A stretch of DNA of 64,000 nt from Mycoplana dimorpha (GTDB lineage Bacteria; Pseudomonadota; Alphaproteobacteria; Rhizobiales; Rhizobiaceae). The stretch covers positions 124,001 through 188,000 of the forward strand of contig NZ_PZZZ01000004.1 of the NCBI RefSeq assembly GCF_003046475.1. The letters run 5' to 3'. Positions 6,018-21,165 of the stretch are shown here, one piece after another. Position 1 is the first letter of the stretch. Every line of letters starts with the position of its first letter. Below the pieces are notes generated by a model. That model was not told where the DNA came from. It did not search any database and saw only the letters and a list, made by a program, of their open reading frames with translations. The position numbers and the translations under genes were made by a program.

Positions 6018-7028
6018 TCAGCCGCGGACGTCCGTAAGCTTGCTCAGCGAACCGTCACGGTGGAGGATCGCATCGAACGCCCCGACAGCCGAGACCGGTA
6101 CATCGGCCGTGTAAGCTGCCGCATAGTTCGGATCGATGCCGGGCACCGGAACGAAATCAGGCCGTTCGGTCGGCAACGGACCGATTTCGGGCAGCAGTGC
6201 GAACTGCTGCATGGCCGCCGCTGCCGCGCTTGCCGGCCGCGGCGCTGCCAGCGCGGTGATCGGGGCCGCATCGCCCGAGGCGTAGCTTCGCTCGGCAAAG
6301 GTCGGGATGGCCACTGGCAGAGCATCTGCGACCGGCGCCGCGGACGCGACCATCACCCCGGTAGCGATCTGTCCACCCGGGTCCACGGCCGGGGCGCGCG
6401 AGCCCTTCGGAATGTAGGAGGCCATCAGGTAGGGCATGTCGTGCCCGTCCATGCGGGCCTTTCCGGCATATTGAACGCGGACCTTGGCGGTCCCCTTGCC
6501 CTTGACCTCGAGCATTTCCGCCGCCTTGGAGGATAGATCTATGATGCGGCCGTCCGAGTACGGACCGCGATCGTTGACGCGCACCAGGATCGAGGCACCG
6601 TTTTCCAGGTTTGTCACGCGGGCGTAGCTCGGCAACGGGAAGGTCGGATGCGCGGCCGATAGGTGGTGGCGATCGTAGATTTCGCCATTGGCAGTGTAGC
6701 GACCGTGGAACGCCGACCCGTACCATGAGGCCAGGCCGACCTTGTCGTAGGCCTGATCCTCTTTCGGCTGATACCACTTGCCGCGGACCTGATAGGGCTG
6801 GCCGACCTGATAGCGGCCGCCACCCTTGGGCACCGGCTGCCCCTCCTTCACGACCCGCGGGCTGGCCTTCACGCCATACTCCGACTCGGCGAAATACTCC
6901 TTGCTGCGGCCGGCCCTGGCCTCATTCTTTCCGGTTGTGCCGCAGGCCGCCAGGCCCGCACACACCATCGGTACGGCAACAAGGCGCATCGCCCGAAGCG
7001 CGCCCGCCGATAAATTTCCGCAAGTCAT
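6018..7028 (-). CDS. rlpA: Septal ring lytic transglycosylase RlpA family lipoprotein
   Basis: About 336 residues with an N-terminal lipobox (AGLAAC followed by GTT), so it is probably an outer-membrane lipoprotein. The double-psi beta-barrel core is clear: GLASWYGSAFHGRYTANGE, then SYARVTNLENG and VRVNDRGPY with IIDLSSKAAEML. The C-terminal third is Ala/Pro-rich with no recognisable SPOR domain. The family cleaves glycan strands lacking stem peptides at the division septum. I chose the ATG at 7028; the ATG at 6989, giving a shorter leader, is possible. It lies upstream of the carboxypeptidase homologue on the same strand. Confidence 0.9.
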   Translation of the reverse strand: MTCGNLSAGALRAMRLVAVPMVCAGLAACGTTGKNEARAGRSKEYFAESEYGVKASPRVVKEGQPVPKGGGRYQVGQPYQVRGKWYQPKEDQAYDKVGLASWYGSAFHGRYTANGEIYDRHHLSAAHPTFPLPSYARVTNLENGASILVRVNDRGPYSDGRIIDLSSKAAEMLEVKGKGTAKVRVQYAGKARMDGHDMPYLMASYIPKGSRAPAVDPGGQIATGVMVASAAPVADALPVAIPTFAERSYASGDAAPITALAAPRPASAAAAAMQQFALLPEIGPLPTERPDFVPVPGIDPNYAAAYTADVPVSAVGAFDAILHRDGSLSKLTDVRG

Positions 7029-7337
7029 ATGTCCCACGCCGCTACATTCCACAGTCAATTTCCACGGAGGCGCTTTGCCACCGCATCCCCGACCCTACCG
7101 GCCGCCCGAAAACAGTTTGTTAATCAGGACGGCAAAATGGCGAAAATCGGAGTAGACATGCGCTTCCAGCCCGGTGGCGGCGCGATTTCTGGGGTTATGG
7201 TTTATGGATCGTGAATTTGAGGGGGCCGGATGCCCCATCGGCATGACGGCGCCGACGATCGTGTCCGCACGGGCTGCTGGGCACGACCCGTCTTTTGTGG
7301 GCGGTCTTATGGGCTTGCGTGGGACCGAGGAAGGACA
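7029..7337. other. Intergenic region between rlpA and HdeA-like gene
   Basis: I see no convincing gene here. Open frames on both strands have skewed, proline/arginine-rich translations typical of antisense reading. The region should hold the rlpA promoter (reading minus). A G-rich rc-Shine-Dalgarno-like stretch sits just above the rlpA start. Confidence 0.5.
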
Positions 7338-8588: not shown

Positions 8589-9096
8589 GGATGACAGCAT
8601 AGGTTTGCGGCTGCGTCGAAACAGTCGCAAACCGTTGTGGGTGTTTGGAGGGGTGCCGGAATTTCAGGATATCCGGTTGCTCTTCGATTGATCCGAAAGA
8701 GCTTGGAAGGGCGGTAGGGCCTCGCAGGAACCCTACATAGCGATCCCGCCCGAAGGCGGTCCTACGGCAGCGAGAATATCACCGTGTCGCGCCCTGGCCT
8801 CGAATTATGCCCGACCTCGCCAGAAACACAAGGAAGCGATTTCGGGGCGCGGATGCTCCGCCAGTCGCGGCAAGCCCTAAAAACGCGCCTACGAGCTTTA
8901 AAAGGGCTTCAAAATCGCTGCGACCCGTCCATAGGGGTCTATGCCCGCGTTCAAGCTGCGGGCCTCTCAACTTTCGTCTGGTAGAACCTCAGCGCAGCAG
9001 CCGCCATCCGCTGGTAGGCTGCGCGGAACACATCGCACTCAAGCCGTGTGTCCACCGCCTGCAAGGCGAAGTGGATCGATGTGCGCTGCAGGCCGG
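8589..9096. other. Gene-poor junction within prophage remnant
   Basis: No intact gene is visible. On the minus strand a frame open from about 9131 down to a stop at 8951 ends in LECDVFRAAYQRMAAAALRF plus a short tail. It has ordinary amino-acid composition and could be the 3' end of a lost gene, but it lacks a clear start. The plus strand upstream of the capsid C-terminal fragment shows no capsid-like sequence in any frame, so the missing capsid middle is not here. Confidence 0.4.
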
Positions 9097-9534
9097 CAGC
9101 GCATCCGCAATTCCTGCGGCATCTATCCCAACAAGCTCATTCTCGGGCCGTTCGCCTATTCGGCGCTGAAGAACAACGACTTCATCGCCAGCCGCTTCCG
9201 CAACGTCGACCTGATCACCGCCGACCTGCTGGCCAAGCTGTTCGAACTGGACGAGGTTGTTGAAGGTCAGGCGATGGTCGCCAACGACAAAGGCGAGTTT
9301 GCGAACGTCTGGGGCAACTATGCCGTCCTCGCCTATGCGCCGAAGAACCCCGGTGGCGTCGAGGAGCCGAGCTTCGGCTACACCGATACCATGAAGGCAC
9401 ATCCCTTTGTGGAGCAGCCCTATTGGGAGGAGAACGTCAAGAGCTGGATCTACGGCGTGACCTATGAGCGCGCGCCGGTGCTTGCGGGCATGTCGGCCGG
9501 CTATCTGTTCATCAACCCGGCTGCGGAGGAATAG
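9097..9534 (+). pseudogene. Phage major capsid protein, C-terminal fragment
   Basis: About 145 residues match the C-terminal end of an HK97-like/Mu-like capsid: GIYPNKLILGP, the DLLAKLFELDEVV motif, and SWIYGVTYERAPVLAGMSAG before the stop. A full capsid of this type is about 300 residues, so half or more is missing at the 5' end; the in-frame sequence upstream is not capsid-like. A matching N-terminal fragment lies inverted at 7921-8106. The protease gene follows after 2 bp. Confidence 0.75.
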
Positions 9535-9536
9535 GC

Positions 9537-10410
9537 ATGCAGAGCATCCATCCTTCCGCGCCGGCCGGCACACCAGCAGCAGCGGCCAAACGCTGACCTT
9601 CACCGAACGCGACCTGGACGCCATCGCCGCGTCCTACGATCCGCGTACGCACGAAGCGCCTATTGTTGTCGGCCATCCGAAGACGGATGCTCCGGCCTAT
9701 GGCTGGATCGAAAGGGTTATTGCCAAGTCGGACGGCCTGCACGCGATTCCCCGGCAGGTCAATGCCGAGTTCTCGGAGCTCGTGCAGCAAGGCGCTTACA
9801 AGAAGGTCTCTGCCGCCTTCTATCCGGCCAACGCCGCGAACAACCCGAAGCCGGGCGCGCCATATCTGCGGCACGTCGGGTTCCTCGGAGCGGAGCCGCC
9901 GGCCGTGAAGGGGCTTAGCGCGGTCCAGTTCTCGGAGGGCGAAGCGCTGCTCTTTGCCGAGGAGGATATGATTGCCCTGCGCGAGCACAGCATCACGGCG
10001 CGCGAGCGGCAATATCGCCGCCGTGAAATCGAGGACACGTTTCGGAGAATCCAGAAGGAAGGGCGGTTGCCGATCGGTCTTCTGCCGGAACGCTGGCCTT
10101 TGCCGAAAGCCTTGGCAAATCCCAAAGCTTCGAGTTCTCCGAGGGTGACGACGGCGACAGCCTGACATTCAGCCAGGCCGAGTGGTTCCTTGATTTCCTC
10201 GCAAAGCTTCCGCAGCCAGTGGACACGCGAGAGCTTGCCGCCGCTGGCGAGTACTCGGAGGAGGGAGAGAGTTTCGCTTCCCCGGAAGGTTACACGGTCG
10301 ACTATCGTTCTGCCGAGATCGATCGGATCGCTCGCCAGCATATGAACCAGCACGGCGGCACCTATGCGGAAGCCGCCCGCTATGCCGAAACGCGCGTAAC
10401 GCGCACCTGA
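9537..10410 (+). pseudogene. Mu-like phage protease/scaffold (gpI-like), two frameshifts
   Basis: The body (about 9558-10085) reads TLTFTERDLDAIAASYDP, then APIVVGHPKTDAPAYGWI and KKVSAAFYP, which are hallmarks of the Mu I-type head maturation protease. The ATG at 9537 is in a different frame from this body, with the shift near 9550. A second shift occurs near 10088: the C-terminal scaffold part continues in another frame (TLAFAESLG, SLTFSQAEWFLDFLAKLP, ending ETRVTRT) to the TGA at 10408-10410. Repairing both would give about 290 residues. The gene is therefore decayed. Confidence 0.75.
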
Positions 10411-10424
10411 ACCCGGAGCATCCT

Positions 10425-10847
10425 ATGGGACAGCAGAGCATCCCCACTCTCAGCCTTACCTACCGCGCGTCCGGCGCGGTCTCACAGCGCCGCGCTGTCG
10501 GCTTAAACGGCGCGCAGGCGAGCGTCGCCGGTCAGAAGGTGCTCGGCGTCGCGCCGCGCCCTGCGGCCGATGGTGAGCACAGCGATGCCACCGTTGCCGG
10601 TACTGCCGTTATTGAAACCGGCGGCGCGTTTGCGATCGGCGCGAGCCTCGTCGTCGATACCCAGGGACGGGCGGTCGCGTCAACCGGCAAGCTGGCGATC
10701 GCAGCCGGTGCCACGCCCGTCACGTCGACCGCTGCCAATGGCAACACCGTGTTGACCGGGGGCGAGCTGCCGGAATTTGTCTTTGCCGATGCGCTGGAAC
10801 CGTCCAGCGCAGCCGGCGCATTTGTTGAAGTTCTCTTGCGGCGCTGA
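10425..10847 (+). CDS. DUF2190-like phage capsid decoration protein
   Basis: A 140-residue, Ala/Gly/Thr-rich protein without charged clusters. It carries the repeated beta-rich pattern (VLGVAPRPAADGEHSDA, TGKLAIAAGATPVTS, VLTGGELPEFVFADALEPS) typical of DUF2190 capsid-associated proteins encoded between protease and capsid genes. The frame is intact from ATG 10425 and is followed by a strong terminator. Function in virion decoration is inferred from the family and from the context. Confidence 0.65.
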   Translation: MGQQSIPTLSLTYRASGAVSQRRAVGLNGAQASVAGQKVLGVAPRPAADGEHSDATVAGTAVIETGGAFAIGASLVVDTQGRAVASTGKLAIAAGATPVTSTAANGNTVLTGGELPEFVFADALEPSSAAGAFVEVLLRR

Positions 10848-10898
10848 AGGTTCGTCGCAGAGAAGGCAGGCAAGGCCGGGGTTCACCATTGCCTGCCA

Positions 10899-10940
10899 AG
10901 CCCGGAGGCCACGACTTTAGCGGCCTCCGGGCTTTCTTTG
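10899..10940 (+). terminator. Rho-independent terminator after DUF2190 gene
   Basis: Perfect 12-bp stem (AGCCCGGAGGCC at 10899-10910 with GGCCTCCGGGCT at 10922-10933), 11-nt loop, then TTTCTTT. It closes the protease-DUF2190 block. Confidence 0.85.
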
Positions 10941-11038
10941 AGGACGGTATTGCCGTCTGCCCACCTTCAAGAATGCCGCGGGGTGCGGCGATCTCCCGAA
11001 CACTCGACTAGGTCGCGAAAGCGATATGGAGTCCTGCA

Positions 11039-11827
11039 ATGAGCCAAGCAACGAAATTTGGCGTTCCGCTATCTGGTCCGTGCACGCCGGCCGCGATGGC
11101 CGCCCGAATGGACGACAGCCTCATGGCGCTGCTGAGCGCGCATTCTGGTGCATCTCGGCCGTCCTATGCTGTGGCCGGGACGGTCTGGCTGGACACTGCA
11201 ACGGTCGGCCAACACAAGTACTATTGCTACGACGGCACGAGCGACCGGCTGCTCTACACCCTCGATACTGCCACCGGCGCCATCACCTTCGGCATCACTG
11301 ATGGCTGGTCTACGCAGCCCATCGGCGTCCCGATCCCGCTGCTCGACAATCTGGCCGGTGTCGCCGCTCCACCGAAGGACAAGGCCTATCGGTACGTCCG
11401 GCTTACAGCCGGGCTGACGGGCGCCGGCGGCTACAACGAGGGCCTGCTTACAGGCGAGACCGTCACCGGGACTGCTCCGCTGGTAGAGGCCAGCGCCGTC
11501 ATCAACCTGGCAGGAAGTACGATCAACGGCCGAACGATCGACCTCGTCAACACCTCGCGCCGGTTCCTCAGAGCTGGCAGCGCTGGGGTCGCTGAGGGAG
11601 ACGCGATGCAGAACATAACCGGTACCCTCGTCATGGGATCTGGCGTCCGCATTGCCGCCGGAACGGGGCCATTCCACACCACGTTTGACCCTATCTCGAA
11701 CGGCGCTGGGGGCGGCAGCAATGCCGGTGACCGAGCGATCAACTTCGACCTTTCCAAAGCCGCGCGCACAGCAACCGAAACCCGCCCGAAGAACCTAGGC
11801 GTCACCTATTACATGAGGGTCCTGTGA
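11039..11827 (+). CDS. Putative phage tail/structural protein
   Basis: A 262-residue protein with an intact frame and a GGAG ribosome site before ATG 11039. The N-terminal half contains AVAGTVWLDTATVGQHKYYC and WSTQPIGVPIPLLDN, patterns seen in phage tail-fibre or tail-tip proteins that begin with repetitive beta-rich domains. The C-terminal half is Gly/Thr/Ala-rich. I do not recognise a precise family. The next gene overlaps it by the stop/start. Confidence 0.45.
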   Translation: MSQATKFGVPLSGPCTPAAMAARMDDSLMALLSAHSGASRPSYAVAGTVWLDTATVGQHKYYCYDGTSDRLLYTLDTATGAITFGITDGWSTQPIGVPIPLLDNLAGVAAPPKDKAYRYVRLTAGLTGAGGYNEGLLTGETVTGTAPLVEASAVINLAGSTINGRTIDLVNTSRRFLRAGSAGVAEGDAMQNITGTLVMGSGVRIAAGTGPFHTTFDPISNGAGGGSNAGDRAINFDLSKAARTATETRPKNLGVTYYMRVL

Positions 11828-12369
11828 TGACCGCATACGCATTCGGAGGCGGGGTGTCCCGCGATGTCCGCACCAACGCGATCGAGATCACGGAACAGCA
11901 ATATCAGGACGGCATCGAGGGTATGCTGGCTGGCAAGCTCGTCACCATCAACGGCGGCTTTGCGGTCATCGATCCGCCGAAGCCGGAGCCCAGTCCGGAG
12001 CCGGAGCCGGAGCCCATCGATCTCACCGCCTATGCCCGCGACCTGTCCTGGCGGACGCGCGGGGACGGCACCACTATCAACGGCGTGCCGGTGCGGCTCG
12101 ATGACGGCAGCCTGTCGCTCATCAACGGCATGGTCGCGCTGGCCGAGCGCGACAGTGGGCGCGCGTTCCACTTCGACAGTGCGATCGGCACCGTGACGCT
12201 GACCGCCTCGCAGGCGATCGCGTTCGCGGAAGCCATCGGCGAGTGGGTGCAGCGCACCTTTGACCGTCGTGCCGACGTGCTGGCCGCCATCGGCACGGGG
12301 AATATTACCACCACTGCCCAGATCGATGCGGCCTTCGCAGACGTTACGGCGCCGTGGATAGTCGCATGA
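11827..12369 (+). CDS. DUF4376 domain phage protein
   Basis: About 180 residues. The N-terminal part has a proline/glutamate spacer (a PEPSPEPEPEPE-like run near residue 60). The C-terminal part contains DLSWRTRGDGTTINGVPV, followed by FHFDSA and ALAERDSG patterns, and ends in a helical RRADVLAAIGTG, as in DUF4376, a domain found at the end of phage tail-fibre operons. The start overlaps the upstream stop (GTGATGA at 11824-11830); GTG 11824 is an alternative. Exact role is unknown. Confidence 0.6.
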   Translation: MTAYAFGGGVSRDVRTNAIEITEQQYQDGIEGMLAGKLVTINGGFAVIDPPKPEPSPEPEPEPIDLTAYARDLSWRTRGDGTTINGVPVRLDDGSLSLINGMVALAERDSGRAFHFDSAIGTVTLTASQAIAFAEAIGEWVQRTFDRRADVLAAIGTGNITTTAQIDAAFADVTAPWIVA

Positions 12370-12448
12370 TCAACGTCAAGGATCTCGGATAGGTTTGAAT
12401 GACCGATAAGAGCGCTCAAAAGGGATTCGACATCGCACCGTCTCAGGC

Positions 12449-12735
12449 GTGGACTTGGTGACGATCCCCTTGAGCTGCTATGCCGAGCTGCTCGACCTGA
12501 AACGTCAATTGGCGGAACGAACCGTCAGTCACGGACAGTTGCTATCGCCCCTTCGCTCACGCATCGAACGCAATCCCGAGGTTGCGGTATTCTGGCTCAG
12601 AACTTTGGCCTGGAAAGCATGGAGCACCTGCTGCGGCGTTGTAGGCGACGATTTGGAGCGCCCAGGACGCCATCCCAGAGTGCAGCTTACAGGTACTGGA
12701 ACAAGCTTCGTGAAGAGGCTTCGGACGAGGCATAG
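12449..12735 (+). pseudogene. Small phage-type protein, frameshifted copy
   Basis: The frame opens with VTIPLSCYAELLDLKRQLAE and runs to ERNPEVAVF. From about 12590 the sensible reading moves to another frame: LAQNFGLESMEHLLRRCRRRFG, then YRYWNKLREEASDEA and a TAG at 12733-12735. Loss of one C in a TTCCTG at 12590-12593 explains the shift. A short ATG frame from 12399 reaches the same place in a third frame, so the true start is uncertain. It is a paralogue of the intact gene that follows. Confidence 0.6.
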
Positions 12736-12771: not shown

Positions 12772-13143
12772 ATGCCCCTCGAAGCACCTTCAAGCCTGCC
12801 TCAAAGAAGCATGGTATGCGATGAGGCGACGGTAACGATCCCCCATGCCGAGTATCTCGACCTTCGTGAGGATCGGCTATGTCTGGAGGCGTGGAAGGCA
12901 TGCGGGGTTCTGAATGAGGACAATAGCCTTGGCCTCTTCGCCCATGACGCGGAAGTTGCAATATTCATTGCTGTGCGGCGAGGCTTAATGACTGCGCGAG
13001 AGGTCGTCGCGGATATCGAGCGGCGATTTGGCGAGGAACGGAAGCCGCCTGTCGGTGAAATAAAGAGGTTCTGGCTGCGCTTTCAGAAATGCCTCATCCA
13101 GAACAGCAATGAAGCCCCGAAGAAGCCGCTACAGCCGGACTGA
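12772..13143 (+). CDS. Small hypothetical protein, paralogue of preceding pseudogene
   Basis: 123 residues from ATG 12772 behind a GGAG site. It shares with its broken neighbour a VTIP..EYLDL start, the motif EVAIFIAV (EVAVFLAQ in the neighbour), an RRRFG/ERRFG element and a final aromatic-Lys/Arg helix (RFWLRF versus YRYWNKL). The last element could be a short DNA-binding helix-turn-helix (VADIERRFGEERKPPVGEIK). I do not know the family; such pairs are common in prophage regions. Confidence 0.5.
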   Translation: MPLEAPSSLPQRSMVCDEATVTIPHAEYLDLREDRLCLEAWKACGVLNEDNSLGLFAHDAEVAIFIAVRRGLMTAREVVADIERRFGEERKPPVGEIKRFWLRFQKCLIQNSNEAPKKPLQPD

Positions 13144-13494
13144 TCAAAAAACGGTTTTTCCAGTTGCGTGTGTCAAAATTCCGATTTCGCGCGACAAGCT
13201 ACAGCCACCGGCGCACAGATTGGGCGCGGCCAAGGGCGGGTCAGCGCGTTGATCTGCAGAGCATTGGCGGAGGGAAAGGACTCTTCGACAAACTCGCTCG
13301 AAGTATGCCCCACATCGCGCTAGCACGCCTTCGTATTCGTAGGTGAATCTTCACTTTCGAGGAACTTCTCTTTTCAAGACGAGACGCGGCAAGCCTTCGG
13401 TTTTGTGGCTCCCGCCAGTATTACCTTGATAGTGTTTTCCGGCCACGCCTTCGTCGTGTCGCATTCCAACTTGCCAGGACGAAAGGACACGAAA
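13144..13494. other. Gene-poor stretch
   Basis: I see no supported gene or strong secondary structure. It probably holds the promoter of the AlpA-like gene and marks the seam between prophage remnant and defence genes. Confidence 0.4.
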
Positions 13495-13710
13495 ATGAAG
13501 GCAACATGCATGAACCAACTTGAACTGGCCGTGCGCTGGGGGATCAGCCATCGCACACTTGAGCGGTGGCGTTGGACCGGTGAAGGGCCGAAGTTCCTCA
13601 AGGTGGGCGGCCGGGTGGTCTATCGCCTATCCGATGTCGAGGAATACGAGCAGTCGATTGTCCGCTCCAGCACCTCCGACCCTGGCCAGGCTCAGCAAGC
13701 GGGCGTCTGA
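13495..13710 (+). CDS. AlpA/excisionase-type helix-turn-helix protein
   Basis: A 71-residue protein starting at ATG 13495, with GAAAGGA upstream. It contains a compact winged HTH: MNQLELAVRWGISHRTLERW, then GEGPKFLKVGGRVVYRLSDV. This is the MerR-type fold of AlpA regulators and phage excisionases. These proteins control integrase genes or excise mobile elements; no integrase is visible here. It sits between the prophage remnant and the BREX-like genes. Confidence 0.75.
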   Translation: MKATCMNQLELAVRWGISHRTLERWRWTGEGPKFLKVGGRVVYRLSDVEEYEQSIVRSSTSDPGQAQQAGV

Positions 13711-13833
13711 CCATAGCGCCGAGATGGCGGTTGGCCGAGGCGCAGCCGCCATTCCGCCCTCTCCCTTGCTTGCAGACCCTACCAATTTCGGTTGAAGCCG
13801 CACAGCTTCTCAGATAGCTTGATCGAAAATCTA

Positions 13834-13855
13834 GAAACTGGGTGCGCCTAGTTTC
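13834..13855. promoter_or_regulatory. Candidate operator of the WYL regulator
   Basis: Imperfect palindrome with 9 of 11 half-site bases symmetric: GAAACT-G-GG at one end and CC-T-AGTTTC at the other. It lies 27-48 bp before the brxR-like ATG, an appropriate place for autoregulation by a dimeric WYL protein. Position and symmetry are seen; binding is inferred. Confidence 0.55.
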
Positions 13856-13881
13856 AGGACGGATCATGTCACTGGGAGTGC

Positions 13882-14775
13882 ATGGTGGGAACAGAGAAGG
13901 CTGATCTTCGGTGGGGCGTCGAGCGTCGGCTCGAATTCATCGAGTTCCGCCTGTTTTGGGAGGGGCATGTGAATCGGGGCGATTTGATGGATGCGTTCGG
14001 TGTGTCGGTGAACCAGGCGTCCACCGACCTGAACCGCTACATCGGAATGGCTCCGGACAACATGGTCTACGACAAGAGCGCCCGGACCTACATCAGAGGC
14101 AGCGAGTTCGGTCCCCTGTTTTTGAAGCCGGATGCCAGCCGTTACCTTTCTCAGCTGCGTTCCGTCGCCGATGGCATCCTCGACCGCGCGGACGCCTGGA
14201 TTGGCCAGTTCCCTGCCTACGACGCCGCACCGACCCCCGTGCGGGGAGTCAATGCAAAGACCCTGCGGTCAGTGGTCGCCGCAATCCGGCGATCAGAGGC
14301 GATCGAGGTCAAGTATCAGTCGCTGTCCCGGCCGGAGCCGCGCTGGCTCTGGATTGCGCCACACGCGATCGGGTTCGACGGTTTCCGCTGGCACACACGG
14401 GCCTTCTGTCTCACCGATCAGAGCTTCAAGGATTTCCTGCTCTCGCGGATCATCGAGACCCGCGGCACCAAATCGAGCGAGGTAGATGCCGATGGCGACG
14501 CGGACTGGAACGAGCAGGTGACATTGGAGATCGGACCGCACCCAGAGCTGTCCGACACGCAGCAGAAAGTCATTGCCCTCGATTACGGGATGCGAGGCGG
14601 ACGGGCCAAGATTCCCGTGCGCAAGGCGCTTGTCTATTACGCGCTCAAGCGGCTGGGGCTGGACACCGACCCCACAGCGCGGCGCCCCCAAGACCAGCAA
14701 ATCGTGCTGCTTAACGCGGCCGAGCTCAGCATCAAGACTCAGGCCAGATCCGCCGGGTCTCGGATGGAGGGCTGA
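13882..14775 (+). CDS. brxR: WYL-domain transcriptional regulator (BrxR/CapW-like)
   Basis: 297 residues. An N-terminal winged helix spans about residues 10-75 (RLEFIEFRLFWEGHVNRGDL, then FGVSVNQASTDLNRY). A WYL domain spans about 125-200: IEVKYQSLSRPEPRWLWIAP and HAIGFDGFRWHTRAF, then a C-terminal dimerisation extension. This architecture matches BrxR/CapW repressors encoded at the head of BREX, CBASS and other phage-defence loci. The next gene, brxF, starts after 1 bp (TGAG-ATG), which supports a BREX role. The frame is intact and an inverted repeat precedes it. Confidence 0.85.
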   Translation: MVGTEKADLRWGVERRLEFIEFRLFWEGHVNRGDLMDAFGVSVNQASTDLNRYIGMAPDNMVYDKSARTYIRGSEFGPLFLKPDASRYLSQLRSVADGILDRADAWIGQFPAYDAAPTPVRGVNAKTLRSVVAAIRRSEAIEVKYQSLSRPEPRWLWIAPHAIGFDGFRWHTRAFCLTDQSFKDFLLSRIIETRGTKSSEVDADGDADWNEQVTLEIGPHPELSDTQQKVIALDYGMRGGRAKIPVRKALVYYALKRLGLDTDPTARRPQDQQIVLLNAAELSIKTQARSAGSRMEG

Positions 14776-14776
14776 G

Positions 14777-15235
14777 ATGATCGAGAAGCTGGATCAACTG
14801 GTCGAGGATATCGCGGGCCTGAACAGCAAGCTGATCCTGCTGATCGGGCCGCCACGATCAGGGAAAAGCAATCTCCTTGGGAAGTTGGCCGAGCGGCGGC
14901 AGGCGCGCGTCTTGAGCGTTGGCGCTGCCCTCGGTCGTGAACTGCTCACGGTGCCTGGCACCCGAAGACACCTACAGGCGGCTGATCGACTGAAAGAGCT
15001 CGCGGATGGATGTGCCAGTCAGGGGCTCTTGCTCCTTGATAACATCGAACTCCTGTTCGATCGGACACTTCAACTCAGCCCGCTAGATCTACTGAAGCGG
15101 CATGCTCACGCACGTCGCGTCGTTGCAGTGTGGCCAGGAGAGCTGCAGGAAGGCCGGCTTTCCTATGCCACGACAGGACATCCAGAACATCAGGACTACG
15201 GCATCGACGGCCTGGTCCCGTTCAAAATTCATTGA
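14777..15235 (+). CDS. brxF: BREX-3 P-loop protein BrxF
   Basis: 152 residues with a Walker A motif [14 protein letters not shown] near residues 24-37 and a Walker B-like [12 protein letters not shown] near residue 78. Size and motif layout fit BrxF, the small P-loop protein that opens type 3 BREX operons. A ribosome site (GGAGGG) lies before ATG 14777. The gene appears complete, unlike the BREX genes after it. The identification is supported by the following brxC start. Confidence 0.8.
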
Positions 15236-15249
15236 AGGGGGAACTCGGG

Positions 15250-15504
15250 ATGCCGATGCATTATGGCGATCTCATTCAGTTTGAACCGATCGAGTCGGTC
15301 ATTCAGCTTCTGGACGCCAATCGTCCGGATGAGGCCAAGAAGCTTGTTTCGACCTACGTCATTTCCGACGACATGGCCGAGCGGATCGCCAAGCAAATGA
15401 TCCCCCAGCTCTCGTTCGACGAGGCTGTAGACCACAAGGGCGTGCTGGTTGCGCCCCTTCGTCGTGCGCACGGAGAAGCGCGTCGCGATCGATGCCGAGG
15501 GTAA
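15250..15504 (+). pseudogene. brxC: BrxC (BREX P-loop ATPase), N-terminal fragment
   Basis: The first about 65 residues read like Brx[34 protein letters not shown] and DHKGVLV. The family normally continues immediately into a Walker A (GNYGTGKSH) and runs beyond 1000 residues. Here homology stops near 15446 and 18 unrelated residues follow before the stop at 15504. The sequence after 15449, in another frame, belongs to the helicase gene. An internal deletion therefore removed most of brxC, the usual methylase gene pglX, and the 5' part of the helicase. Confidence 0.8.
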
Positions 15505-17464
15505 GCCGCTCTTCAAACCGCGCATGACCCGCCTCCATCCGGTGGCATGGCAGGACCGCCACGCGAGCCAGCAGAAGCTCTACGAGGCCGTCACGGACTA
15601 TGTCCGCCACGGCTACAACCAGGCCATGGCCGCGAAGCAGCGGCACATCGGATTCCTGATGATCCTGATGCAACGGCTCGTCACATCCAGCACTGCCGCC
15701 ATTCGGGCCACCCTCGAAAAACGCCAAGCTTTGCTGGACCAGCCGCAGCTTCAACCGTCCTTGTTCGAGACAGCCGACGTTGACGAGTGGGCTGAGCTGG
15801 ACGGGCAGACCCAGGTGGATCTCGCCATCCAGACCAAGGGCTGGGAGATGGAAAAGGCCGAGGTGGACACGCTGCTCGACCTGGCCCGCGCCACCGAGGC
15901 GCAGGGGACGGACGCCAAGGCTGAGGCGCTCCTGGAGCTGATCTACAAGCTTCAGCAGGAGGAGAATGATCCTGAGCTGAAGGTGCTGGTCTTCACCGAG
16001 TTCGTGCCCACGCAGGCAATGCTTGCGGACTTCCTCGAAAGCCGTGGCTTCTCGGTCGCCACTTTGAACGGTAGCATGGATCTCGAAGCTCGCACTCGGG
16101 CGCAGCAATCATTCTCCCGAGATATTCGCATTCTGATCTCGACAGACGCTGGTGGCGAGGGTTTGAACCTCCAGTTCTGCCACGTCATCGTGAACTTCGA
16201 CATGCCGTGGAACCCTATGCGAGTCGAACAGCGCATCGGCCGCGTCGACCGTATCGGGCAGCCGCACGTCGTGCGCGCGATCAACTTCGTCCTAGAGGAC
16301 ACGGTCGAGCATCGCGTGCGCGAGGTTCTGGAAACGAAGCTCGCGGTCATCGCCGAAGAGTTCGGCGTGGACAAAGCCGCCGACGTAATGGACTCGGTCG
16401 AAGCAGAACCGCTGTTCGATGAGCTCTTCGTCCAAGGGCTTAAGAACCCAGACGCCATCGAAAGCGAATGCGACGCGGTTGTGTCGCAGCTTAGGTCGAC
16501 CATCGCCGAAAGCCGCAAGAGCAGCGAGCTCTTGTCGGATGGGCATCAGCTTGATGCAGACGATGCCCGCAAATGGAGAGACCACCCGGCGCAGTTCTGG
16601 CTGGAACGGGCAATCACGACCGGACTGCCCGCGCGCGGCGGGGATGCCGTTAGGGAAGCCGATGTTTGGCGGGTGCGTTGGGTGGACGGCAGCGAGTCGG
16701 CCAAGGTCTGCTTCGACGCGAGGACGGCCGAGGAGCGGCCCGATGTGGAATGGGTAACGCTTGAAGATCCCCGGGCTCGGGCAGTGATCAGCGATCTGCC
16801 GCGCTGCGTTTCGGGTCAACCGCTTCCTACCGTCCGGATTGCCGGCCTTCCGGAGAGTGTCCGGGGCGTATGGTCGCTGTGGGAGATTAGCCTGTCTGCC
16901 GATGATTTCAGCCGACGGCGCTTCCTGTCCGTCTTCGTGAACGACGAAGGGCGAGCCTTCCTGCCGACAGCAAAGCGGATCTGGGATCTTCTTCTGACGG
17001 AACGGGTCGAGAGTGTCGGAGCTGTCGCCGCCGCAGATGCAAACGGCTGCTTTGACCGCGCTAAGAATGCCGCTCTCACCCAAGGCGAACGCATCTTCGC
17101 GGAGATGGTGGAGGAGCACAGGGCCCTTATCCAGGAAGAGCGCGAACGCGCCAAGTACGCCTACGATGTCAGTGCTGGCACCGTTGTCTCGGGCGCATCG
17201 CAGAAGATTTCAACTCCGCGGTCGGCAAAGTCGACAAGGTCCGCACGGGGCTCCAGCCAAAGGCGGTTGAGTACCGTCCTGGTCTTTTTCTTCGCTGCTG
17301 GTCCGGAGTGTGATGACGCTAGAACCTCGTCGAGGTCATCGAGAGTGCTCCTACCAGCTCGAATGCGGAGGGCAAGCAAAGCCCAGTCCAGTTGGATGAA
17401 GCGGTCGAAACCTATTTGCGGCGACGAGGAGTTCATGATGCTGGTCTTTTTATGTTTATCTTGA
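15449..17464 (+). pseudogene. brxHII: BREX-3 SNF2-like helicase (BrxHII), C-terminal fragment
   Basis: Helicase coding is clear from 15449 to about 17166, with the superfamily 2 C-terminal motifs in order: VLVFTEFVPTQAML (motif IV region), GSMDLEARTRAQ, ILISTDAGGEGLNLQFC (motif V) and EQRIGRVDRIGQ (motif VI). The N-terminal ATPase half (motifs I-III) is absent, so it cannot hydrolyse ATP. Beyond 17166 the frame runs antisense through the brxA fragment and ends at 17464 by chance. Subfamily BrxHII is inferred from the BREX-3 neighbours. Confidence 0.8.
17161..17436 (-). pseudogene. BrxA-like, N-terminal fragment (inverted)
   Basis: A frame of 91 residues begins at ATG 17436, overlapping the pglZ stop as ATGA, the linkage expected for pglZ-brxA. 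It reads MNSSSPQIGFDRFIQLDWAL, then KTRTVLNRLWLEPRADLVDF and DRGVEIF, and stops at 17161. About 17165 is where the helicase frame on the other strand begins, so the gene is cut there. BrxA assignment rests mainly on position as the gene after pglZ in type 3 BREX; the sequence match is from memory. Confidence 0.5.
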
Positions 17465-18737
17465 TGAAGGGAACGATGAGTTCCTCAACGGAAATCCCCC
17501 CGTGCGCGACGATTTGATCTCCCTTTGGAACGAAGGCTCCCCGCGTGCCGGCGTATACCGGCAAGAAGTCTGGCGGTAGTCCAGAACTATTGAACCTAAA
17601 CGCATCGATTTCCGACGGCACAGATGCTGCCAGCGGTTCACTGCGATAGGTACGAACCCTTTCGCCTCTCAGCTCTGACACGACACCTTGGCTGAGACGG
17701 CCAATGCCTTCTGCGTCGACATTGCCGTGGTCCGCGGTGAGGTAGATTTGATACCCTTGCTCTGTGAGGAGCAAGAACAGCTTCTCGACGAAACCAGTTT
17801 CACACCACGTATTGATTTGCCCGGCGATACCTCGCTTTCCAAGCATCGCCCCGTGAACGATTTCATCGACCATATCGACGACTATGCCGGCAACCCTTGT
17901 TGCCGGCTTGGAGATGGCATCCTCCAGCTCAGCCAGCTGCTCCGTCCGCTTCAGGCCTTTCTGATAAACGATCTCTGGCTTGCGAAGGCCGTTCTCCTGC
18001 CAGAAGCGTGCCCAGAGAGACGGCTCCTGCGATGTAGTTTCGATCGAGTTCGAGAACTCACGGGGCTTTAGACCTGAAAAAAGAGCTTGTCGTGAGACGG
18101 AAGTGAGGGTGGGCAGCCATGCGAAGCACCCACCTTCTTCCGCTGAAAAGCCAGGTAGACGAGCCGCCAGGTGCTCTCGGATTTGGAACCACTGATCCAG
18201 TGCCAAGCCGTCGAACACAAGGAGCGCCACCCGTTCCTCGACTACATTTCGGCGCAGCGCCAGGTATCGCGGCACGTGATGAACCATCACTGGCCCTTTC
18301 GCCGCCGGGAGGGAGGGCAGATCCGCGTAATGCTGAACTAGCCAGCCCCTCAACCGCTCGTCAGCGTCGCGCTGCAGCTTGCAAAGTTGCTGCTGGATCG
18401 GCTCGGCGATCTCTGTGCTGAGACTATTGAAGCGCGAGATGACTTCGCCGAGCCGGCGGGCCAGTTCGACCCAGTCGCGATGCGTCGCGTTGGCATCAGG
18501 TAGGTCAGCGGCAATCCTCCTTACACCTTCGGATACAAGGTTACCGAGCGCATGGGGATCCTCAACCAGCCCCACCTTGACCCACTCCGGCAAGTCAGTC
18601 GGAGAGCCATGCGCCTGGACAGGCTGAAGAGCCCCTTCGAGGAACATCGTATCGACGATGACCCTGACGTCGGGATGCTCAAAAGGTACTGAAACCTCCG
18701 GCAATACCTCTGCGGGGTCGTCCGAGGTGCGTTCGCT
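17433..18737 (-). pseudogene. pglZ: PglZ (BREX phosphatase-like), 5'-truncated and inverted
   Basis: About 434 residues of the C-terminal part. Alkaline-phosphatase-superfamily motifs are intact: LLVFDGLALDQW, PTLTSVSRQALFSG, YLTADHGNVDAEG and the family-typical VAHGGISVEELIVPF near the end. The N-terminal 200 or so residues are missing: above 18737 the frame runs antisense through a serine recombinase gene. Orientation is opposite to brxF-brxC, whereas all genes of a type 3 BREX operon normally face one way. No promoter of its own is evident. Confidence 0.85.
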
Positions 18738-19052
18738 GTGGACATGGTCGAGGATGCCGTCGTCGGCGAAATCCGCCGCATGATCCGCGCACCCGAAGTC
18801 GCGGCGCGAACCATAAAGGCTCTTCGCGACGAGAGCTCGACCGTCGATGAGAAGGCGGTCGTCCAGGCGCTTGGCGAGTTCGATCAGCTCTGGGCGGCGC
18901 TCTATCCGGCGGAGCAGACCCGCATCGTCCAGCTGCTGGTCGAACGGGTGACCGTCGGCGAAGACGGCATCGCCGTCGATCTGCGCCATGAGGGGCTGGG
19001 CTCGGTCCTGCGGGACATGATGGCCACCCGCCAGACGGAGGCCCACGCATGA
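18738..19052 (+). pseudogene. Serine recombinase, C-terminal fragment
   Basis: About 104 residues reading VEDAVVGEIRRMIRAPEVAA, then FDQLWAALYPAEQTRIVQLL and VERVTVGEDG. This is the C-terminal coiled-coil/recombinase region of alphaproteobacterial large serine recombinases. The catalytic resolvase domain and the zinc ribbon are missing, because the sequence upstream is the antisense of pglZ. The stop overlaps the next gene as ATGA. An intact parent would be a site-specific integrase for a mobile element. Confidence 0.75.
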
Positions 19053-19444
19053 CCGACTCGACGAACACCATCCGCGTCGTCATCCCCCTGACGATCCGCA
19101 AACGCAATGGGCGGACGAAGATCCTCCCGCCCGACGAGGTGACAGTCCGGGACGGCCGGTCGCAAGACCCTCATGTGCTGCGCGCCATTGCCCGCGCCTG
19201 GAGCTGGCGGCGGCAACTGGAAACGGGCGCCGCTTCCACGATCCAGGACATCGCTGCGGCCGAGAAGGTCTCCGACCGGTTCGTCAGCCGAATGATGCGG
19301 CTCGCCTATCTGTCGCCCGAGGTGCTCGATCACCTCGTCATCAGGCGCGTGCCGCCGGCGCTTTCGCTGAACGACCTCGTTGCGGTTGCCGAACGGCCGT
19401 GGGCGGAGCAGATGGAACTCGTTACCGGATCATCGTTGGATTAA
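19049..19444 (+). CDS. Small recombinase-associated HTH-like protein
   Basis: 131 residues from the ATG overlapping the recombinase stop. It has an N-terminal RVVIPLTIRKRNGRTKILPP segment and a helix-turn-helix-like STIQDIAAAEKVSDRFVSRM followed by LAYLSPEVL. A gene of this size and pattern is commonly found directly downstream of serine recombinases in alphaproteobacterial mobile elements. Its function is unknown, probably DNA binding. The frame appears complete. Confidence 0.65.
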   Translation: MTDSTNTIRVVIPLTIRKRNGRTKILPPDEVTVRDGRSQDPHVLRAIARAWSWRRQLETGAASTIQDIAAAEKVSDRFVSRMMRLAYLSPEVLDHLVIRRVPPALSLNDLVAVAERPWAEQMELVTGSSLD

Positions 19445-19563
19445 AGCAGCTTAGGTGCCATCATGCTTTCGGGGGTACGATCGCAGCAGGTTCGCTTTGC
19501 TCTGTTTGGGTCGCGCGGACAAGCAACAGAGAGTTTGGGTCGGCGCTCAGGAGGCCCGTAGTC

Positions 19564-20670
19564 TTGGACATCGATACCTTCTTCGCTAATGTCAGAAAGC
19601 TGGCTACCTTCGCCAACGAGGCCAATGCTGCCATTCATGAAATGATAGAAAGTCCAGGCCGGTACGCCTCGATTGTCAATCCGTCTGTACAATTCAGGGA
19701 AACCCTTCTTTCCGGCGAAGAAGAGAATGATCTCAGCTGTTATCTGGCGATCGGCTTTTTCGCAGGCCGGTTACGTCGAGCACGTCTCGCCAGCTTCGCA
19801 ATGACGTTCGATGTGCAGCACGAGGCCACTCGCCTGAGACTGCGGGCGCAATGTGAGCCCTATAGCCAGACACAGCTGCTCTTTCAGAATGTGCCGTCGC
19901 TGTTCGAGCGCATCCGTCGCAAGAAAGGCGGTAGCCAGGACTATGAACTCATTGATCTGGGGGCGGTCCGATCTGTGTCAGGAAGCGAGGTTTATCAAGC
20001 TGGAAACGGCTTCACAAAGCTCTGTCCGTTCCTCAGTCCAGGCATTGTCAACTGGGTACAGAAGCAGTGGCCTTCGGCGCCAACCTATGTTCGGCTCGAC
20101 GCCAATGCCTACTTCGGCGACCAACCAGTTCAGTTGCTGACTGAAGCCACATTAGTACCCGCAAACCCGCGATGGCTGCCTGATTTCAGCCTTCGCAAGG
20201 GGATGAAGGACTTTGCCGCCTACGAGCTTCAGAACCGGCCAGTTTCAGAAGGACATGCCGAATATTGGGACTATCATGTTCGACATCTGCGCCGGCTGGA
20301 AGTCCACGTTCAGCGCCGCGAGGACAACTATCTCTCGATGCTGATAGAGGAACTGCCCAGGGCCGACGATCCGAATGGACTGATGGTCGGACGCTGTATT
20401 CATCTCGACACCCACGATCCGGCGTTCACGCCTCTCGGTGAGGTTGAGATGCAGCACCTCGATTTGGCTATCAACGTATACGCCGGAGAAGACCGGCAGA
20501 AACGTTTTGGGCAGAGCCTTCAGCATGGCAAAGTGCAGGACGCTACGTTTCGAACGCACCTTCTTCGCATTGAGGGGATACCCTTTGTATCGGTTTTCGC
20601 CTTCTGCGAAATGTTTCTGGAGTCGAAAATCCTTCTCAGCGAATGGCTGAACGAGCTGGTGGCACCTTGA
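19564..20670 (+). CDS. Hypothetical protein of the island, unknown function
   Basis: 368 residues. I chose a TTG start at 19564 because a strong AGGAGG site lies at 19549-19554, nine bases upstream; the frame is open further upstream to 19399 without a better start. The protein has no signal peptide or membrane segment and no motif I recognise. It is a mixed alpha/beta sequence with aromatic-rich stretches (EYWDYHVRHLRRLEVHVQRR, LLRIEGIPFVSVFAFCEMF). Composition looks like genuine coding. Its place between a recombinase unit and tRNA-Ser makes it mobile-element cargo, possibly defence. Confidence 0.7.
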   Translation: MDIDTFFANVRKLATFANEANAAIHEMIESPGRYASIVNPSVQFRETLLSGEEENDLSCYLAIGFFAGRLRRARLASFAMTFDVQHEATRLRLRAQCEPYSQTQLLFQNVPSLFERIRRKKGGSQDYELIDLGAVRSVSGSEVYQAGNGFTKLCPFLSPGIVNWVQKQWPSAPTYVRLDANAYFGDQPVQLLTEATLVPANPRWLPDFSLRKGMKDFAAYELQNRPVSEGHAEYWDYHVRHLRRLEVHVQRREDNYLSMLIEELPRADDPNGLMVGRCIHLDTHDPAFTPLGEVEMQHLDLAINVYAGEDRQKRFGQSLQHGKVQDATFRTHLLRIEGIPFVSVFAFCEMFLESKILLSEWLNELVAP

Positions 20671-21075: not shown

Positions 21076-21165
21076 TGGCGGAAGAGGTGGGATTCGAACC
21101 CACGGTACGGTTGCCCGCACGCCGGTTTTCAAGACCGGTTCCTTAAACCACTCGGACACTCTTCC
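21076..21165 (-). tRNA. tRNA-Ser (anticodon UGA)
   Basis: 90 nt including an encoded CCA. The acceptor arm GGAAGAG pairs with CTCTTCC; the anticodon stem CCGGT/ACCGG encloses loop CTTGAAA with anticodon TGA (complement at 21129-21131); a long serine-type variable arm and the T-loop GGTTCGAATCC are present. The accessory island ends at its 3' side (lower coordinates), the usual position for elements integrated in tRNA genes. Confidence 0.97.

Follow-up and report, generated by a model that had tools for sequence, protein, structure and literature searches.

What remains of a BREX (bacteriophage exclusion) type 3 operon whose genes lie in pieces on both strands of the Mycoplana dimorpha genome, and how did it reach this state? 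The locus occupies positions 13882–18740 of a 64,000-nucleotide stretch of DNA (the window; contig NZ_PZZZ01000004.1 of assembly GCF_003046475.1). A preliminary description had read it as a scrambled operon with only brxR and brxF intact. The consulted part of PMC12839542 counts six core components in BREX type 3, among them BrxF, a BrxB-like relative of inactive ATPase type. The locus is a remnant and not a working BREX type 3 member. It is very probably a recently inactivated operon that was formerly the cargo of an island integrated at a tRNA-Ser gene.

Family searches placed every named piece in its BREX or WYL family. The WYL-domain regulator brxR (13882–14775, plus strand; PF13280 36 bits, cut-off 22) and the P-loop gene brxF (14777–15235, plus strand; NF033453 179 bits, cut-off 50) were both of full length. 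On the same strand, they were followed by brxC codons 1–67 with an out-of-frame tail ending at a stop (15250–15501; positions 1–65 of 1238 in PF19557, 106 bits, cut-off 23) and by a brxHII fragment that begins ~300 residues into the protein and stops short of its C-terminal end (15452–17168; positions 304–879 of 933 in the PADLOC BrxHI/BrxHII profile, 849 bits). The minus strand carried, inverted, the first ~89 codons of brxA (17169–17436, start at 17436; positions 1–94 of 251 in PADLOC BrxA, 49 bits; no match for this short piece in Pfam and NCBIfam) and the C-terminal part of pglZ without its start (17433 to ~18740; NF033449 475 bits, cut-off 250; PF08665). BrxF and a PglZ of the BREX type 3 kind, the latter judged by its C-terminal part only, were present. 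The set of complete BrxC, PglXI, BrxHII, PglZ, and BrxA in one direction was not found, as its members are fragments or absent and two are inverted. The reported absence of pglX was also confirmed: a DNA query with the complete operon of Gellertiella hungarica matched only the three known pieces in the assembly (40 of 94 first-look candidates scored). Three features go beyond the preliminary description: the last ~102 codons of a serine recombinase (18743–19052, plus strand; 91–97% at the amino-acid level to L087, L139, and L138), an unusual Leu156 in BrxR, and the surrounding island.

The brxHII fragment, used as a query against genome contigs, gave 196 confirmed loci, 80 of which were kept, and the complete G. 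hungarica operon (L023), with 90–93% nucleotide identity, served as the reference for the joints. Window positions 14775–15451 corresponded to L023 1212–1888 (90% identity), 15452–17168 to L023 10004–11720 (93%; the aligner's gapped row starts at 15440/9993), and 17169 to ~18740 to L023 14154 downwards (93%). At the first joint (15451), an ~8.1-kb deletion relative to L023 leads from brxC codon 68 into brxHII, with 2 bp (TG) common to both sides, and places brxHII out of frame with brxC codon 67. The second joint (17168/17169), an inversion, is blunt. At the third, similarity to pglZ stops near 18740 and similarity to the recombinase starts at 18743, the bases between being assigned to neither. 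Against L023, the losses are 11721–12579 (the end of brxHII and the start of pglZ) and the end of brxA; comparison with L138 and L139 adds the N-terminus of the recombinase. Every piece belongs to the same family as in the G. hungarica operon, and the order before the rearrangement was the same; unlike that operon, the window has brxC, brxHII, pglZ, and brxA truncated, pglX missing, and brxA–pglZ inverted.

The alignment of the fragments and the mapping of breakpoints on related genomes, as proposed earlier, agreed with the expectation of at least one deletion and one inversion: one 8.1-kb deletion and one inversion with sequence lost on both sides were found. The deletion fuses brxHII, out of frame, to brxC codon 67. 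Another rearrangement leaves the pglZ–brxA piece inverted and joined to the last ~102 recombinase codons, with no recombinase N-terminus, brxHII end, pglZ start, or brxA end. One inversion and two deletions would be enough to explain this layout, and template switching would serve equally. The rearrangement damaged the recombinase as well as the defence cargo; BREX defence and methylation would be gone, and the island would no longer be mobile by that serine recombinase. The joints are private to this genome within what was searched: they were crossed in none of the 80 related loci and in none of the matches listed from 296 other family genomes (two candidates scored per genome), and a 36-base pattern spanning the first joint was absent from viral contigs. 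A phage collection gave no match.

The established gene order brxF, brxC, pglXI, brxHII, pglZ, and brxA in one direction was complete in 43 of the 80 related loci, while 27 were cut by the end of the locus and 10 were otherwise incomplete. Internal brxC-to-pglX deletions with brxF kept were found in L068 (5740–9062) and L080 (8068–9070), all or nearly all of brxC was missing from the stretch compared in L041, L046, L050, L056, L062, L074, and L086, and L082 probably runs off its contig. The set of related loci, chosen by brxHII, is too small and biased to support a rule on the first gene lost. The BrxF family was present at its cut-off in five of 385 genomes of the class, including that of the window. 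BREX type 3 operons also look mosaic: brxHII in L007–L010 is 91–95% identical to that of the window and pglZ–brxA 74–78%, and the proteins of L007–L018 compared with L023 are 55–62% identical for pglX, where present, and 85–95% for brxC.

The age of the break was assessed from the constraint on the fragments. No internal stops were present in the remnants. Departures at columns conserved at ≥95% were found at 2 of 324 columns for BrxHII, 1 of 126 for PglZ, 0 of 23 for BrxA, and 0 of 41 for BrxC. For the window paired with each of 11 chosen loci (L023, L007, L008, L009, L011, L013, L014, L016, L018, and L020, with L137 for brxR), the ratio of nonsynonymous to synonymous substitution rates (dN/dS) was, where defined, 0.05–0.16 for brxR (nine loci), 0.07–0.23 for brxF, 0.04–0.08 for brxHII, and 0.06–0.19 for pglZ. 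Synonymous and nonsynonymous changes (S and N) were assigned to the window branch (brxHII S 13.5, N 6.5; pglZ S 8, N 7; brxF S 5, N 1; brxA S 2, N 0), to the Gellertiella branch (S 10.8, N 8.2; S 12.5, N 15.5; S 14.5, N 16.5; S 1, N 0, in the same order), or to neither (S 68, N 9; S 36, N 13; S 16, N 11; S 14, N 3). The window branch showed no excess of amino-acid changes in the remnants, and the dead fragments are free of relaxed constraint. As the fragments have neither stops nor such an excess, the break is judged to be recent.

This bears on the strongest alternative, in which the remnant is maintained: BrxR and BrxF, or BrxR alone, would still be useful, for example by repressing incoming islands with the same operator. 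Both genes are whole, BrxF shows no departure at the 39 columns conserved at ≥90% among 54 homologues, and the exact operator pattern recurs in two islands of other cargo. However, with a break so recent, whole frames are expected without selection, and the dead fragments are equally clean; the wholeness of brxR and brxF is therefore no evidence of present selection. BrxR moreover departs at 2 of 129 conserved columns compared with 15 homologues. One of the two is Leu156: Arg stands at this position in all 15, and also in the close copies of L137 and L198. We consider a maintained remnant unlikely.

The proposed operator is a 22-bp palindrome upstream of brxR (13834–13855), the only match to its pattern in the window at ≤2 mismatches (0.01 expected), and is proposed to bind BrxR. 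In L137 and L198, too, the WYL gene has the exact pattern before it, but none of the 80 BREX type 3 loci contains it. By eye, a related motif lies near −48 upstream of most of 15 WYL genes, L013 and L024 being without it. BrxR matched two solved structures over nearly its full length (CapW 7tb6, 230 bits, E 2.4e-67, residues 6–282; BrxR 7t8k, 159 bits, E 1.3e-45, residues 14–258), and scored higher with CapW than with Acinetobacter BrxR. According to the consulted part of PMC9122601, BrxR of Escherichia fergusonii binds inverted repeats upstream of its own gene, and 48% of BrxR homologues are near known defence systems; in that of PMC9122589, deletion of brxR in Acinetobacter was toxic and a stop codon within brxR had little effect. 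In length, WYL domain, upstream palindrome, and relatives beside several kinds of defence systems, the window protein resembles the BrxR/CapW repressors as these sources present them, and differs from the relatives compared in having Leu156 in place of the conserved Arg. Through the palindrome, it may still act as a repressor of brxF and of its own promoter, and brxR–brxF may still be expressed, as was suggested earlier.

A second, very unlikely alternative is that misassembly produced the joints and that the strain carries a complete BREX type 3 operon. The assembly (4.59 Mb, 22 contigs) is a draft and might be chimeric, and the same joints were seen in no other genome searched. However, three separate wrong joints would be required, and the assembly is rated 100% complete and 0.4% contaminated. 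The DUF6079 (BrxC) and PglZ profiles each matched at one place, and the G. hungarica query described above found no further parts; this absence of the missing parts argues against simple misassembly. The concern that the rearrangement is an assembly error, stated at the outset, is thereby made unlikely. BREX genes can undergo phase variation, and the inverted segment adjoins a serine recombinase gene, but a programmed phase-variable inversion has a negligible chance of being correct, as the joint is blunt, both of its sides have lost sequence, and the recombinase gene is without the region that in its relatives codes for the Resolvase domain.

The remnant lies between two TGGCGGA repeats. At the left end, the repeat (13265–13271, plus strand) is followed by GGGAAAGGACTC. 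The corresponding position in L142, L197, and L198 holds TGGCGGAGGG, whereas L137 and L138 have TTGGAGGG at this boundary and TGGCGGAGGG 244 bp further out. At the right end, the repeat (21076–21082, plus strand) coincides with the 3' CCA end of tRNA-Ser(tga) (21076–21165, minus strand), and L139, L223, and L224 have the same right end by tRNA-Ser. TGGCGGA occurs seven times on this strand of the window, so the argument rests on the positions and not on the 7-mer by itself. No long repeat of the tRNA-Ser stretch exists at another place in the window. Five of 394 family genomes, including that of the window, contain the right end (≤2 mismatches). It lies without a tRNA in L225, is joined to a left end in L138, and occurs in Paracoccus pBEN (L087), where ARAGORN detects no tRNA. 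Its pattern was absent from all six same-genus genomes, and it was not beside tRNA-Ser in G001, G002, G004, and G005; in G001, G004, and G005, a match to window 6915–7043 lies 1.3–1.9 kb from this tRNA. A prophage remnant (8941–12369), with a major head protein fragment and head protease, scaffold-like, and tail fibre genes, accounts for part of the window's difference from these same-genus sites. The same two ends surround other cargo in G771 (L198, L223), with the left end at ~C12:69430 and the right end at C12:46619 by tRNA-Ser(tga), ~22.8 kb apart. A frame-broken copy of a 131-amino-acid gene of the window, described below, lies ~3 kb inside that right end.

Similarity to five relatives (L138, L137, L142, L197, and L198) starts at 13262–13269 in each. 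This header contains an excisionase-like HTH_17 gene (13495–13710, plus strand; PF12728 35 bits, cut-off 27; phrog_66 'excisionase and transcriptional regulator' 31 bits). The similarity spans the WYL gene to ~14714–14720 in L137 and L198 and stops at 13658–13851 in L138, L142, and L197. Behind it lie DrmMII, a DrmD-type helicase, and DrmMI in L138 (similar to DISARM, the defence island system associated with restriction–modification), a DUF499/Hma system in L137, a type II restriction enzyme and methylase in L142, type I restriction genes in L197, and type III restriction with a DrmD-like helicase in L198. In L137, a 738-amino-acid frame (15103–17319) near the Gellertiella DUF499/Hma genes resembles a Cas9 N-terminus by eye. 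HTH_17 matches at E ≤1e-8 were found in at least 100 of the 394 family genomes, including that of the window. Among the matches listed, the five relatives scoring ≥116 bits (76–97% identity) all lead into defence genes. Relatives scoring ≤99 bits (19 among the matches listed, 54–73% identity) were set apart from the header family; one protein was scanned at 9 of the 18 fetched loci (G072:C4 was not fetched), giving eight phage DNA-metabolism proteins and one integrase (L214).

The truncated recombinase corresponds to 498-amino-acid frames with Resolvase and Recombinase domains in L138 and L139. It is followed by a 131-amino-acid recombinase-associated protein with a ParB-like helix-turn-helix (19049–19444, plus strand; phrog_14161 'recombinase'; TIGR00180 below cut-off). 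For a 423-amino-acid frame (19399–20670), Pfam, NCBIfam, PADLOC, and PHROGs gave no matching family, and a 123-amino-acid frame to the left of the island (12772–13143) weakly matched a phage RecBCD inhibitor family (E 7.7e-4).

Several observations weigh against the reading of a recently broken island cargo. Only the window was seen to have both header and recombinase enclosed by a single pair of ends: no recombinase was found in the two fetched stretches of G771, L138 has a right end between header and recombinase, G230 has the two on different contigs, and Gellertiella has the header with no recombinase match. The window–L023 dN/dS for pglZ (0.19) exceeds that of most other pairs (0.06–0.12), and many changes can be assigned to neither branch. 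A consensus scan of 13700–15300 detected no sigma-70-like promoter, and the complete relative is 7–10% diverged, so the joints are placed to within a base or two.

Integrative defence islands linked to tRNA genes typically have an end at the tRNA 3' end, a recombinase gene, and defence cargo. The present island shares these features and differs from such islands in general in having one fixed left end before unrelated defence systems, of which a limited literature search turned up no description. Tentatively, and with more doubt than confidence, we suggest that this family of tRNA-Ser islands has one constant front part (an attachment repeat, an HTH_17 gene of phage origin, and sometimes a WYL repressor with its operator) at which unrelated defence systems are loaded, the cargo being swapped just behind the header. 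Here, the cargo would have been disarmed and the island frozen, and related islands arriving later could come under the control, in trans, of the surviving repressor.

The decay of a BREX type 3 operon is itself ordinary, and the island with exchangeable cargo is the part worth following. The death of the operon was mapped to within a base or two and tied to an island family whose members have a similar front end followed by BREX type 3, DISARM-like, DUF499/Hma, or restriction systems, with the same operator pattern in three of the islands. Two questions thereby become testable: does a single regulator serve several defence systems, and in what way is defence cargo swapped?

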